This document shows, piece after piece, positions 1 to 57,179 of a stretch of 64,000 nt of DNA. The position numbers were made by a program, and so were the translations under genes. Source of the DNA: Tardiphaga sp. P9-11 (lineage in GTDB: Bacteria > Pseudomonadota > Alphaproteobacteria > Rhizobiales > Xanthobacteraceae). The first letter of the stretch is position 1. Every line of letters begins with the position of its first letter. The notes beneath the pieces were generated by a model. The model was not told the origin of the DNA, searched no databases, and worked only from the letters and a program-made list of their open reading frames with translations. The stretch covers positions 62,001-126,000 of the forward strand of contig NZ_NPKQ01000006.1 in the NCBI RefSeq assembly GCF_008329525.1, read 5' to 3'.

Positions 1-233
1 AGGCCCAAGGGTGCAACGGGCACCCGGCGTTCCGCACGCCCTCTCACAGGAGGGCGGGAATGCAAGAGATGACGGCGCCCCCCCCGCCGTAAATAATGGG
101 GGTGATGTCGCATGTCTGAAGAGCAGTGGCTGTTTGAAATTCACATCAGCAACGACGCGCAGGCGTCAGAGGGATCCCTCCCTCAAGCACTGCGCAGCTG
201 CGCTGCTTGAGGGAGGGAGGGAGAAGAACCGCC
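1..233. repeat. Gene-free edge region, probable decayed dispersed repeat plus palindrome
   Basis: No convincing gene is visible here. Bases 1-60 (a cacccggcgttcc core followed by ccctct, caca and agaggg-like bases) resemble a GC-rich intergenic element I know from Bradyrhizobium genomes; that identification is from memory. Bases 176-217 form a hairpin with a perfect 14-bp stem (176-189 with 204-217) whose loop is itself self-complementary. It lies just beyond the degP stop codon and could stop degP transcription, but no T-run follows the stem on either strand. Confidence 0.45.
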
Positions 234-1772
234 CTACTGCACGCTCAGCGCCACGAAGCGCAGCTCACCTTCGGCATTTGATACCAGCAGCAAGACCGAT
301 TTCTTGCCGTCCTTCTTCAAGGCATCGACGCGCTTCTTGACGTCGGCGGCATTGGTCACTGCCTCCTGCGCGACCTCGACGATGACATCGCCGGCGGCCA
401 GGCGCTTCTCGGCCGCGTCGGAGCCGGCGTCCACACCAGTCACGATCACGCCCTTCACGCTGTCCTTGATCTTGTACTTGGTGCGCAGATCCTTGCTGAG
501 GCCGGTGAGATCGAGACCCAGCGCCTTCTGGGTCGCCGGCTTCTCGGCTTCCGGCGTGGACTTGATCGACGCCTGCACCGGCTTGTCGTCTTCCAGGCGG
601 CCGAGGGTGACCTGTTTGGTCTCTTCCTTGCCCTTGCGGATGATCAGCACATTGACCGCCTTGCCGACTGTGGTGCCGGCGACGATGCGCGACAGGTCCT
701 TCGGCTCCTTGACGTCACGGCCATCGAATTTGATGACCACATCGCCGGGCTCGAGGCCGGCAGGCTTGGCCGGGCCCTTGTCGTCGACGCCGGCGATCAG
801 CGCACCACGCGCCGGCTTGATGTTCAGGCTCTCGGCGATCTCGTCGGTGACCGGCTGGATGCGTACGCCGAGCCAGCCGCGGCGGACTTCCTTGTATTCG
901 CGCAACTGCTCGATGACGCCGACCACGGTCTTCGACGGCACGGCGAAGCCGAGGCCGATGGAGCCGCCGGTGGGCGAGATGATCAGCGTGTTTACGCCGA
1001 CCACTTCGCCTTCGAGGTTGAACAGCGGACCGCCCGAATTGCCGCGATTGATCGAGGCGTCGGTCTGGATGTAGCTGTCATAGGGACTGTTATTGCTGAT
1101 CTCGCGGTTACGCGCTGAGACGATGCCCGCAGTAACGCTGCCGCCGAGCGAGAACGGATTGCCGATGGCGATCACCCATTCGCCGAGGCGCAGCTTCTCG
1201 CTATCGCCGAATTTCACGGCAACAACCGGCTTCACCGGGGTGAACTTCAGCACGGCCAGATCGGTCTTCTTGTCGACGCCGACCAGCTCCGCCTTGATCT
1301 TGGTGCCATCATTCATGATGACGGTGATCTCGTCGGCGCCATCGATGACGTGGTTGTTGGTGACGACAATGCCGGATGCGTCGATAATGAAACCGGAGCC
1401 GAGCGAATTGGTCTTGCGCGGCTGCATGCCGCCATTCTTCTCGCCACCGGGGCGACCACCGCGGTTCTTGAAGAAGTCGTCGAAGAACTCCTCGAACGGC
1501 GACCCTGGCGGCAATTGCGGCATCGCCCCGCGGCCACCGCCCTCGCCCTTGTCGCTGTTCTTCGCCTCGACGGTGGAGGTGGTCGAGATATTGACCACCG
1601 AATCGATCACTTTCTCGGCGACATCAGCAATCCCATCCGGGCCGCGGGCCGAGGCCGGCGCGGAGAATGCGGCAACCGCAGCGCAAAAACAAAGAGCCGT
1701 CAGGAGCGGACGCAGGCCGCCATACGACGCACGGCGCGAGACAGGGCTCAGAGTGGGGTGAGCGATGGACAT
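234..1772 (-). CDS. degP: DegP/HtrA-family periplasmic serine endoprotease (Do-like)
   Basis: Periplasmic protease and chaperone of envelope quality control. The 512-residue product has an N-terminal signal-like hydrophobic segment (about residues 20-43, ending near an Ala-Ser-Ala cleavage site), a Gly-rich and acidic linker with Phe-Phe pairs, a trypsin-like domain with His141 (NNHVIDG), Asp171 (TDLAVL) and Ser246 (GNSGGPL), then two PDZ domains. I chose the ATG at 1772 because it has GGAG nine bases upstream and yields a clean signal peptide; an earlier in-frame start at 1904 lacks this support. It is the last gene of the hflK-hflC-DUF2065-degP series, consistent with a joint role in membrane protein quality control. 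Confidence 0.95.
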   Translation of the reverse strand: MSIAHPTLSPVSRRASYGGLRPLLTALCFCAAVAAFSAPASARGPDGIADVAEKVIDSVVNISTTSTVEAKNSDKGEGGGRGAMPQLPPGSPFEEFFDDFFKNRGGRPGGEKNGGMQPRKTNSLGSGFIIDASGIVVTNNHVIDGADEITVIMNDGTKIKAELVGVDKKTDLAVLKFTPVKPVVAVKFGDSEKLRLGEWVIAIGNPFSLGGSVTAGIVSARNREISNNSPYDSYIQTDASINRGNSGGPLFNLEGEVVGVNTLIISPTGGSIGLGFAVPSKTVVGVIEQLREYKEVRRGWLGVRIQPVTDEIAESLNIKPARGALIAGVDDKGPAKPAGLEPGDVVIKFDGRDVKEPKDLSRIVAGTTVGKAVNVLIIRKGKEETKQVTLGRLEDDKPVQASIKSTPEAEKPATQKALGLDLTGLSKDLRTKYKIKDSVKGVIVTGVDAGSDAAEKRLAAGDVIVEVAQEAVTNAADVKKRVDALKKDGKKSVLLLVSNAEGELRFVALSVQ

Positions 1773-53294: not shown

Positions 53295-54887
53295 CTAGCG
53301 CGAGGCGATCCGAATAGCGGAAGTCATCTCCGCCAGCGCAGGCCAGCGATAGAACGGTGTATCAGGCTTCGGCGTCAGGTCAGGCGTCCAGCCCGTGAGC
53401 TTGTCGATCGCATAGTGCTTCATCGCCGTGCCGCGCCAGATGGTATCGACTTCGGCAACTGACGTGAGCACCGCACTCGTCGTCGCCAGCAGCGCGCGCT
53501 GGTTGTCCGCGGTCTGCGCTATGTAGAGTCCGGTCTGCTCCTTAATTCTGTCCATGCCGGGATCGCGGAAGCCGATAAATCTGGCGCGCTCGTTGACCTG
53601 CACCACCGGCACCTTGTCTTTCAGATGCCAGCGCAGCATCGCATAGGTGCGGTAGTCGGTCGTCGCGATCCACGTGGCGCCGGTGGTCTTCATCTCCGCC
53701 AATGCGCGGTCGGCCAGCCCCTGATAGCCGCCCTCGCCGCCGAGCGGATCGTTCTTGCCAATCAGGTTCCACGGCGCGGCCACGCCATAGAGGAACACCA
53801 GCACCACCAGCGGAATGCCGGTGGCGACGGCGGCGATGCTCCAGCCATAGGAGGCACGCACCACGCGCGGCGACCAGCCGTCGCCCGCGAGCTTCGTCAG
53901 GTTGATCGCCGCCGCAGCGATCCCGGCAGGCCACAGGAACATCGGCCAGGTATCGCCGACACGCAGGGTCAGCGACTTCCATGCAAAGTAAAAGAACGGC
54001 ACCAGCACGCAGGTGGCGAGCAGGATCGCGACCGGTTCGCGGCGGCGATAGCCACGCCATGCCGTGACGACAACCGCGGAGAGAATGACCGGCATCAGGA
54101 TGAAGCCGACCTGGCCGAACTGCAGGCCGAGAAAATCGCCGAGCGTGCGCAGCGACACCTCGTTGTTCGTGGTGGCGCGGATGAACTGGAACCTGAACGA
54201 TGCCCAGTCGTGGCCGGCATTCCAGATCAGGACCGGCGACGAGATCGCCAGTGCGATCAGCACGGCCAGCCATGGATACGGGCTGCGCAGCCAGCGCCCG
54301 CGCCATTCCGGCACCAGCATGAAAGCGAGAATGCCCGGTACGAACATCACCACGGTCAGCTTCGACAACAGCGCGAGACCACCGAAGACGCCGGCCGCGA
54401 GCCACCAGCGCCCGTCATGGCTTTCGGCAAGCCGCACCAGCGACCACAGCATCGCCATGGCGAACGGGATCAGCGCCACGTCCGGCGCGACCTTGGCCAT
54501 CAGCAATCCGTAATACAGCGCCGCTTCCGACATCAGCACCGCCAGCAGCACCGCGCGCAGATCCTGCGTGACGCGGCGAACGATGTCGGCGAGCAGCAAC
54601 TGCGTCACCGCCATCGCCACGATACCGGCGAAACGCGCGCCGAAATTGGTGTCGCCGAAGATCAGCGTGCCCGCACGGATGAACCATGAGATCATCGGCG
54701 GATGATCGAGGAACGACAGCACGTTTTCCTTCGACCAGGTCCAGTAATAGGCCTCGTCGGTGCGCAGATCGAACAGCCCGGCATAGACCAGCCGCATCGC
54801 TGTCAGCGCGACCAGCAATGCACCGATCACCCAAAAGGCGCGGCGGGAGACATTCCGATCGAGGTAAGGGTCGGGAAAAGACGTCAT
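53295..54887 (-). CDS. Glycosyltransferase family 39 / ArnT-like membrane protein
   Basis: A 530-residue integral membrane glycosyltransferase with about 10-12 helices. The LRTDEAYYWTWSKENVLSFLDHPPMISWFI segment in the first periplasmic loop carries the Asp/Glu pair typical of lipid-linked sugar transferases (GT-C fold, PMT_2 domain). It probably transfers a sugar from a polyprenyl phosphate to lipid A, a protein or another acceptor. I start at 54887 (MTSFPDPYLD); a longer frame to 54977 is not supported by a ribosome site. Confidence 0.87.
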   Translation of the reverse strand: MTSFPDPYLDRNVSRRAFWVIGALLVALTAMRLVYAGLFDLRTDEAYYWTWSKENVLSFLDHPPMISWFIRAGTLIFGDTNFGARFAGIVAMAVTQLLLADIVRRVTQDLRAVLLAVLMSEAALYYGLLMAKVAPDVALIPFAMAMLWSLVRLAESHDGRWWLAAGVFGGLALLSKLTVVMFVPGILAFMLVPEWRGRWLRSPYPWLAVLIALAISSPVLIWNAGHDWASFRFQFIRATTNNEVSLRTLGDFLGLQFGQVGFILMPVILSAVVVTAWRGYRRREPVAILLATCVLVPFFYFAWKSLTLRVGDTWPMFLWPAGIAAAAINLTKLAGDGWSPRVVRASYGWSIAAVATGIPLVVLVFLYGVAAPWNLIGKNDPLGGEGGYQGLADRALAEMKTTGATWIATTDYRTYAMLRWHLKDKVPVVQVNERARFIGFRDPGMDRIKEQTGLYIAQTADNQRALLATTSAVLTSVAEVDTIWRGTAMKHYAIDKLTGWTPDLTPKPDTPFYRWPALAEMTSAIRIASR

Positions 54888-55006
54888 CGCCGAGCTTTTC
54901 GGCGGACTTCGCCATGCTGTCAACTTGTTGACTTTACTGCTGGATAAGGTCTGTCCGGAGGCCGCTCCGGATGGCATCGGAGCGCGTCTCGCCGTAGGGT
55001 TTCGCC

Positions 55007-56767
55007 ATGGACGCGACGTTCAAGACAGCCGGCAAGCCGCCCGGGCCCACCCGCGCCACCGCGTGGTGGCGCAGTGTCGGCCTGCGCCAGATCCGCCTCG
55101 TCTGCGGGCTGGTCCTGTTTGCCTATCTGCTCAGCCATTTCCTCAACCACGCACTTGGCAACATCTCGCTCGACGCGTTGCAGGCCGGCGTCATCATCCA
55201 TGCCGGCTTCTGGCAGTCCTTCCCGGTCGCCGAGATCTTTTATTCGGCTGTCACGATCCATGGCGTGCTCGGCATCTGGGCGCTGTACGAGCGCCGTCAA
55301 TTTCGCTGGCGGGCCATCGAGCCACTACAACTCGTACTCGGACTCAGCATCCCGGCACTCATCGTCGCCCATGTGGTCGCGATCAGGCTCGGCCAGAACC
55401 TGTTCGATATCGACCGCAGCTATCCGCAGGTGTTCTACAGCTGGATCACATCGCCGTGGAAAACCTGGTCGATGTATCTCGTGGTACTCGTCTCCTGGCT
55501 GCACGGCTGCATCGGATTGTACTTCTGGCTACGGCTGAAATCCTACTTCAAAGCTGTCGCGCCCTACCTGCTCGCAGCGGCAGTTCTAATTCCGACACTG
55601 GCGCTGCTCGGCATCTTTCAGGGCAAGCGCGAGGTCGAGGCGAAGCTGACATCGCCGCAATGGCAGGCGGCAAATCTCAACGAGACACGGCTCGGCACCG
55701 AGCCGCAACAACAGACCCTGGGCGATCTCACAGATCGGCTCCTGATCGGCTATGCCGCGCTGCTCGCCATTGTGCTGGCGGCGCGCGGCATCCGGCAGCT
55801 GGCGGAGCAGCGCGCAGGTATGATCAATCTCGCTTATGGCGATGGCCGCAAAATTCGCGTCCCCACGGGACTCAGTGTCCTCGAAGCCAGTCTCCGCCAT
55901 CGCGTTCCGCATGCCAGCGTCTGCGGCGGACGCGCGCGCTGTTCGACCTGCCGCATTCGTATCACCAGCGACATCGGCAACCTGCCGGCGCCGTCAGCAC
56001 GCGAAGCCTTTATTCTGAACCGCATTGGCACTGGTGCCGATCCCGCGGTTCGCCTTGCCTGCCAGTTGCGGCCGACAACCGATGTGGCCTTCGTGCAATT
56101 ATTCGCACCGCAGGTGACCAGCGCAAATGCGCATGCATCGCAGCCGGCGCGGATCGGCCAGGAGCGTTATCTCGTCTGCATGTTCGTCGACATGCGCGGC
56201 TCGACCATGCTCGCCGAGAAGCGGCTGCCTTACGACACCGTGTTCATCGTCAACCGCTTTCTTGACGCCGTCTCGCAAGCTGTGATCGCAAGCGGCGGCC
56301 AGCCCAACCAGTTCATCGGCGACGGCGAGCTGGCGCTGTTCGGCCTCGCCTGCGATCCGCAGACCGCATGTCGTCAGGCCCTGCAGGCTGCACGGCTCAT
56401 TGCCGAGAATATCGACGAACTCAATCGCGCCCTCGCCCATGACCTGCCGCAGCCACTACGTTTCGGCATCGGCATTCACGGCGGCGAAGTCATCGTCGGC
56501 GATATCGGCTATCGCGACCACATGGTGTTCACCGCACTCGGCGATGCGGTCAATGTCGCTGCGCGCCTGCAGGACATGACCAAGAGCCTCGCTTGCGAAG
56601 TCATCATCTCCGAGGAAGTAAGCACCACTGCAGGCCTCGCGGGTGACGCGCTGCCACAACAGGACGTCGCGATCCGCGGTCGCGCCGCGCCGATGAATGT
56701 ACGCACGATCGCAGATGCCAGGGTACTTCCATCTCTCGTTACCAGCGACGTGGCTCCCGCGCTTTAA
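55007..56767 (+). CDS. Membrane [2Fe-2S] class III adenylate/guanylate cyclase
   Basis: A 586-residue multi-domain signalling enzyme. Residues 25-205 form 5-6 hydrophobic helices with His44, His48, His85, His122 and His166, placed like heme ligands in SdhC/FrdC-type cytochrome b proteins. Residues 272-368 are a ferredoxin domain with Cys306-x5-Cys312-x2-Cys315-x36-Cys352, the adrenodoxin-type spacing. Residues 387-560 are a class III cyclase with Asp395 (FVDMRGST), Asp439 (FIGDGELALF) and GDAVNVAARLQ, so catalysis looks intact. Redox or electron flow probably controls nucleotide production. The domain assignment is strong; heme binding is inferred. Divergent from the glycosyltransferase gene. 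Confidence 0.88.
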   Translation: MDATFKTAGKPPGPTRATAWWRSVGLRQIRLVCGLVLFAYLLSHFLNHALGNISLDALQAGVIIHAGFWQSFPVAEIFYSAVTIHGVLGIWALYERRQFRWRAIEPLQLVLGLSIPALIVAHVVAIRLGQNLFDIDRSYPQVFYSWITSPWKTWSMYLVVLVSWLHGCIGLYFWLRLKSYFKAVAPYLLAAAVLIPTLALLGIFQGKREVEAKLTSPQWQAANLNETRLGTEPQQQTLGDLTDRLLIGYAALLAIVLAARGIRQLAEQRAGMINLAYGDGRKIRVPTGLSVLEASLRHRVPHASVCGGRARCSTCRIRITSDIGNLPAPSAREAFILNRIGTGADPAVRLACQLRPTTDVAFVQLFAPQVTSANAHASQPARIGQERYLVCMFVDMRGSTMLAEKRLPYDTVFIVNRFLDAVSQAVIASGGQPNQFIGDGELALFGLACDPQTACRQALQAARLIAENIDELNRALAHDLPQPLRFGIGIHGGEVIVGDIGYRDHMVFTALGDAVNVAARLQDMTKSLACEVIISEEVSTTAGLAGDALPQQDVAIRGRAAPMNVRTIADARVLPSLVTSDVAPAL

Positions 56768-56933: not shown

Positions 56934-57179
56934 ATGTTTCGCAAACTCGCACTCGCATTCGTTGCTGCAGCTTCCCTCGGCGCGATGGCGCTGACGCCGT
57001 CCACCGCATCGGCCCATGGCTGGGGCTGGGGCGGTCACCACCACCACTTCCATGGCGGCGGCTTCTACGGCCCCACTTTCGGCATCGGCTATGTCGGCGG
57101 CGGCGGCGGATGCTATGTGAGCCGCCGCATGATGACGCCCTACGGCCTACGCTGGCGTACGGTTAACGTCTGCTACTAA
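56934..57179 (+). CDS. Small secreted Gly/His-rich protein of unknown function
   Basis: An 81-residue protein with a clear signal peptide (MFRKLALAFVAAASLGAMALTPSTASA) and a mature part rich in Gly, His and Trp (HGWGWGGHHHHFHGG), ending with two Cys (GCYVSRR and NVCY). The His cluster suggests metal binding. A good GGAGAA ribosome site precedes the ATG. A hairpin terminator follows at 57200-57226. Confidence 0.75.
   Translation: MFRKLALAFVAAASLGAMALTPSTASAHGWGWGGHHHHFHGGGFYGPTFGIGYVGGGGGCYVSRRMMTPYGLRWRTVNVCY

Follow-up and report, generated by a model that had tools for sequence, protein, structure and literature searches.

A CyaC-type cyclase gene in Tardiphaga with a predicted di-heme and [2Fe-2S] redox sensor, and relatives of the sensor that lack a working cyclase

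What does a protein respond to that joins a His-rich membrane part, a ferredoxin and a nucleotide cyclase in one chain, and which cyclic nucleotide does it make? A gene for such a protein lies in the 64,000-nucleotide stretch of Tardiphaga sp. P9-11 DNA analysed here, called the window in what follows. A preliminary description had placed it at 55007-56767, and open reading frame, strand and length agree with that (Table 1). The domain order and the invariant His and Cys residues agree with the relative CyaC, the anchor resembles FrdC in its predicted fold, and T509, N516, R520 and the metal Asp residues are intact; for these reasons the window protein is very likely a redox-controlled class III cyclase of the CyaC type, in which the hemes, the cluster, the quinone response and its sign would be as in that relative. 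The gene thus belongs to a known kind, judging from its sequence, and an active-site difference found throughout its clade may alter its product.

Domains and predicted fold

Pfam, AlphaFold and the relatives in the PDB give the same domain order, a six-helix (6TM) anchor followed by a [2Fe-2S] ferredoxin and a class III cyclase. The window protein matches Fer2 with an E value of 2.1e-6 (28.0 bits against a cut-off of 21) and Guanylate_cyc with 5e-9, above the gathering score, while Pfam gives zero matches for its first 270 residues. The spacing Cys306-x5-Cys312-x2-Cys315-x36-Cys352 had been read correctly and is exact. The PDB contains relatives of the ferredoxin part, putidaredoxin and adrenodoxin homologs among them (E in the 1e-7 range), with the Cys lined up in the three alignments shown, so that the adrenodoxin type proposed earlier is upheld for a predicted cluster; adrenodoxin and putidaredoxin share the Cys spacing and are free carriers, whereas the window ferredoxin is built into a membrane signalling protein. 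The two metal Asp residues ascribed to the cyclase are D395 and D439.

Table 1. Positions of the window gene, its parts, its divergent neighbour and related genes in other loci (window coordinates unless a locus is named)
Feature	Position	Strand	Basis
CyaC-type redox cyclase gene (predicted), 586 aa	55007..56767	+	ORF ATG to TAA; homologs
Membrane anchor, aa 23-270, six long predicted helices	55073..55816	+	AlphaFold models; Foldseek top match 2bs4_C (FrdC)
Anchor helices (aa): TM1 26-52, TM2 74-95, TM3 104-133, TM4 150-177, TM5 185-213, TM6 232-269			AlphaFold
His44, predicted heme ligand, TM1	55136..55138	+	155/155 homologs
His85, predicted heme ligand, TM2	55259..55261	+	155/155 homologs
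His122, predicted heme ligand, TM3	55370..55372	+	155/155 homologs
His166, predicted heme ligand, TM4	55502..55504	+	155/155 homologs
His48, outside the invariant set	55148..55150	+	130/155 homologs; 2/19 cyclase-less copies
[2Fe-2S] ferredoxin domain (predicted), Fer2, aa 278-357	55838..56077	+	Pfam; PDB relatives
Four predicted cluster Cys 306, 312, 315, 352 (span)	55922..56062	+	CCCC in 155/155
Class III cyclase catalytic domain, Guanylate_cyc, aa 391-541	56177..56629	+	Pfam; PDB relatives; Foldseek
Gln435, counterpart of the base-specifying CyaC Lys410	56309..56311	+	
Thr509, Asn516, Arg520 (CyaC Thr484, Asn491, Arg495)	56531..56566	+	constant offset 25; CyaC numbering from PMC10463352
PMT_2-type membrane glycosyltransferase, divergent neighbour	53295..54977	-	Pfam; in 57/58 loci of at least 13 kb
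CyaC-like proteins, catalytic residues lost	L121 12868-14631, L122 12786-14534, L130, L131, L132, L137, L208 (also L158)		
Cyclase-less di-heme-anchor and ferredoxin genes (hemes predicted) upstream of MscS	L120/L259, L121, L122, L248-L258, L260, L261		

The full-length AlphaFold model (67 close sequences) has a mean pLDDT of 70 and a pTM of 0.52, and its anchor part is good; residues 301-317 and 339-409, the cluster and linker region, have pLDDT values below 50, and therefore a heme-to-cluster distance cannot be stated. Modelled alone, the anchor reached a pLDDT of 82 and a pTM of 0.76. Structure prediction with comparison to SdhC and FrdC had been suggested as a check, and it gave a six-helix bundle with the four invariant His on the first four helices, for which the top match in the PDB by Foldseek was the di-heme subunit of fumarate reductase from Wolinella, 2bs4_C (E 0.35, TM 0.48, rmsd 6.2, probability 0.98); all other anchor matches had a probability of at most 0.08 (best 50 of 79). 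With the whole model, Foldseek found nucleotide cyclases only (best 50 of 157 matches).

A profile of 55 anchors, built from sequence only, also ranked 2bs4_C first (E 0.46) and a SdhC second. The window anchor is without a match to the Pfam family Sdh_cyt, and 4 of the 55 anchors reach E 0.1, the best at 0.015. BLAST is said, in a passage of PMC4821796, to link the 6TM anchors of ferredoxin cyclases with cytochrome b subunits, a link at BLAST level that our Pfam and profile-versus-PDB searches did not reproduce. The likeness to FrdC is probably one of fold and ligand spacing, without clear sequence homology and with a modest score. The window anchor and FrdC of Wolinella succinogenes appear to share the helix bundle; they differ in that identity over aligned columns is 12% at TM 0.48 and that the window protein has an extra membrane helix leading into the ferredoxin. 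No FrdA or FrdB partner was seen adjoining the window gene. The heme ligands of FrdC lie on its first four helices, as the invariant His of the window protein do; by analogy with the ligand pairs of FrdC, His44 would pair with His122, presumably on the outer side, and His85 with His166, presumably on the cytoplasmic side.

Five membrane His had been listed as a set, 44, 48, 85, 122 and 166. All five are present and four fit as heme ligands: nine columns are invariant among the 55 anchors (28-46% identity to the window), and four of these are His44, 85, 122 and 166. His48 was dropped as a ligand, since it is kept in only 130 of 155 homologs, against 155 of 155 for the other four, and in only 2 of 19 cyclase-less rows; it seems to accompany the form that has a cyclase, and probably does not hold heme. 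A further His of the membrane region is His65. The SdhC/FrdC-like, His-ligated anchor of the preliminary description agrees with the fold match and the invariant four His, for hemes that are predicted. We also dropped the possibility that this anchor serves the succinate dehydrogenase of the genome, since two adjacent Sdh_cyt matches are present elsewhere in the genome.

Published relatives and spread of the family

The preliminary description held that the signal of such cyclases was, to its knowledge, not established; published work has overtaken this. According to passages of PMC10463352, CyaC of Sinorhizobium meliloti (SMc01818) is an adenylate cyclase with two heme B and a [2Fe-2S] cluster that answers to respiratory quinones; passages of PMC9552081 and PMC13259868 repeat the di-heme quinone control, and in all three the source cited for it is Wissig et al. 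2019. The proposed control of a nucleotide cyclase by redox state or quinones is thus published for this relative, and may by analogy apply to the window protein. Oxidation is given as the activating step of CyaC in passages of PMC10463352, where the highest assay activities are those under anaerobic growth with DMSO, so that the sign of the response is open to doubt. Ferredoxin cyclases with four His were described in 2016: parts of PMC4821796 list 30 class IIIb cyclases in which a ferredoxin separates the 6TM anchor from the catalytic domain. They have four spaced His in the membrane, a heme pair is predicted for them, and they are named 'cluster 1', occur in alpha- and beta-proteobacteria and are exemplified by Rhodopseudomonas palustris Q132R4. 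Compared by these descriptions, the window protein is like them in its 6TM anchor, four spaced His, ferredoxin and class IIIb cyclase, and no difference was seen.

The window protein was set beside CyaC by architecture and published residue numbers, not by sequence alignment. By the passages of PMC10463352, both have a 6TM di-heme-b anchor (predicted in the window protein), a [2Fe-2S] ferredoxin and a class III cyclase in the same order, and CyaC Lys410, Thr484, Asn491 and Arg495 fall on Gln435, Thr509, Asn516 and Arg520, all at an offset of 25. They differ in Lys410 against Gln435, and in their neighbours, the TetR gene cycR directly upstream in S. meliloti against a divergent PMT_2 glycosyltransferase at the window; a TetR partner is reported for S. 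meliloti only and is no family-wide criterion.

By analogy with CyaC, the window protein would work as follows. His44 with His122 and His85 with His166 would hold two b hemes in the FrdC-like bundle, and these would exchange electrons with the quinone pool, whose redox state the ferredoxin between TM6 and the cyclase would follow or relay. The change would reach the cyclase dimer by way of TM6 and the ferredoxin and so set the output of cyclic nucleotide, oxidised quinone turning the enzyme on. Tardiphaga and its relatives would then have respiratory redox sensing of the CyaC type.

Homologs were drawn from 80 genome-contig loci, from further genomes by protein or anchor profile, and from plasmids. 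The closest match with an organism name in the genome contig search was Tardiphaga robiniae Vaf-07 (96%). Of 17 other genomes of the genus, 15 contain a long match, and the two misses are genomes that are 81-87% complete. At the cut-offs chosen, the protein query (E up to 1e-40) matched 95 of 347 genomes of the order; at the class level the anchor profile found 81 of 289, and at the phylum level 39 of 349 genomes have a match. In family f24, which we read as Rhizobiaceae from the position of its members beside Rhizobium etli in the tree, the count is 51 of 121. The four His (44/85/122/166) and four Cys are kept in 74/74 close homologs and in 155/155 distinct homologs down to about 30% identity, a count that describes the family and is no independent test, all 155 rows having been collected by family similarity and including the window's own copy (L181) and some same-family copies.

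Active-site residues and copies that have lost them

Gln435 stands in place of CyaC Lys410, and D395, D439, T509, N516 and R520 are all intact. Gln is found at this position in 89/89 close rows. In a tree of 123 rows, made from anchor and ferredoxin columns only, the window's branch (22 rows, SH-aLRT 94) has Gln throughout, with the other catalytic residues unchanged; it holds Bradyrhizobium, Tardiphaga and plasmid copies from Cupriavidus and Burkholderia (beta-proteobacteria), so that both it and 'cluster 1', as described in parts of PMC4821796, have alpha and beta members. Over the 116 tree rows scored at position 435 there are 80 Lys, 28 Gln and 11 changes. The cyclase could be scored in 133 rows, truncated L162, L129 and L138 being excluded from these counts: the full CyaC set is present in 104, Gln with the rest intact in 17, and in 8 a metal Asp, the Asn or the Arg is lost.

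In passages of PMC10463352, Lys410 and Thr484 are ATP-site residues of CyaC, and a variant with both changed to Ala served as the inactive form; by this analogy, enzymes of the Gln435 branch may differ from CyaC in nucleotide choice or rate. CyaC does not stand for the window's branch at the base-specifying residue, and cAMP is not to be assumed as the product; 'cAMP or cGMP' had been fairly put. Our literature search found no report of a Gln form of a CyaC-type cyclase among the matches listed.

Seven of the eight rows with lost catalytic residues form one clade (SH-aLRT 99), and the four His and four Cys are retained in all of them. An in-frame cyclase is lacking in 19 rows (median pairwise identity 37% over all 19), and 16 of these form another clade (SH-aLRT 99) that covers 14 genera in four families. 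In 16/16 loci of this clade the gene is followed directly, on its own strand, by an MscS-type channel gene whose stop-to-stop frame overlaps or touches it. The MscS frames have 650-1026 codons, and MS_channel_2nd is above the cut-off in 17/17 proteins, one locus having two. The other three cyclase-less rows do not belong to the channel-linked clade and are doubtful cases: in L262 a cyclase ORF overlaps in another frame, probably through a frame break, in L263 the gene ends 120 bases short of the contig end, and in L119 (2895-4448) anchor and ferredoxin are followed by about 165 residues without a Pfam match. The frame downstream of the L119 gene looks HlyD-like by its sequence.

As a control, 241 anchor-cyclase loci were searched (median length 4,758 bases, often with short flanks and including overlapping fetches of one place), and an MscS-like frame was found only in L121 and L122, both of which also carry a cyclase-less gene. 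The window has no MscS-like frame, and no fusion of the redox module with an MscS channel was seen in the loci examined. This is good evidence that the cyclase-less module and the MscS gene are a real gene pair, and it is suggestive, not more, of a channel under redox control; all 16 loci form one clade, so that they may have inherited the pairing from a single event. In the clade with lost catalytic residues the sensor outlives the cyclase, and a cyclase-less form of it goes with MscS channels. If the two genes work together, a mechanosensitive channel may be gated by the state of the quinone pool, which would link respiration with osmotic or ion balance. Neither a CyaC-type module with an MscS channel nor the clade with lost catalytic residues was reported among the matches listed in our literature search.

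Competing readings and genome surroundings

The same sensor could drive another product, with the site formed by Gln435 and Thr509 no longer strictly ATP-selective, so that cGMP, both nucleotides or another cyclic nucleotide is made. Gln throughout the branch, set against Lys in most scored rows and against the Lys410/Thr484 pair of the CyaC ATP site (PMC10463352, in part), speaks for this; Thr509, Asn516 and Arg520, the same as in ATP-using CyaC, speak against it, and we hold it to be rather unlikely. Some other class III cyclases whose selectivity is loose may also carry Gln at the place of Lys410; our literature search, including one survey on substrate-specifying residues, gave no usable passage on this among the matches listed.

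The clade that lost its cyclase residues and kept all His and Cys, together with the cyclase-less copies, would also suit a protein that is primarily an electron carrier, from quinol to a cytoplasmic ferredoxin partner, with the cyclase as a secondary attachment. We consider this improbable for the window protein: its own branch has changed none of the cyclase residues except Lys, the cyclase-less clade adjoins channel genes and not oxidoreductases in the loci examined, and CyaC activity is reported to respond to redox state. An ordinary cyclase, with the membrane part a mere anchor and the Cys and His structural, is very hard to reconcile with the data, since it is exactly the ligand set that is invariant across all the homologs and since the di-heme and cluster of CyaC are published. 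The CyaC-type reading is kept. A broader proposal, which rests on the relatives and not on the window gene, is tentative: the di-heme-[2Fe-2S] part might be a portable sensor of the quinone pool with at least two outputs, a cyclase, altered in nucleotide choice in one branch, and a redox-gated MscS channel of which it would form a separate, upstream-encoded subunit.

The surroundings of the window gene are ordinary conserved chromosome and reveal no partner gene. Among the 80 contig loci, 58 are at least 13 kb long; the PMT_2 glycosyltransferase is present in 57 of these and the other neighbours in 38 to 52. The genome has 13 matches to cNMP-binding domains, and 11 places match a cyclase query at E up to 1e-3; candidate readers of the signal and competing cyclases therefore exist. 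Downstream of the cyclase gene, a short ORF (56934-57179) that opens with a signal-like segment and contains a GGHHHH-rich stretch is present in 38 of the 58 long loci and has no Pfam match above the cut-off. The literature search found no report of ferredoxin-cyclase-Rieske proteins, one of which is encoded at L127 2990-4318 as a soluble protein of about 443 aa with Fer2, Guanylate_cyc and Rieske matches in Pfam and without a membrane anchor; L128 carries a close copy. Between the divergent glycosyltransferase and cyclase genes lies a near-palindrome, TGTCAACTTGTTGAC (54918-54932), which may serve as an operator or represent a pair of facing -35 boxes; leaving aside a filler row of 20 bases, it is the same or nearly the same in 6 of 7 aligned upstream stretches of relatives and is missing in L007.
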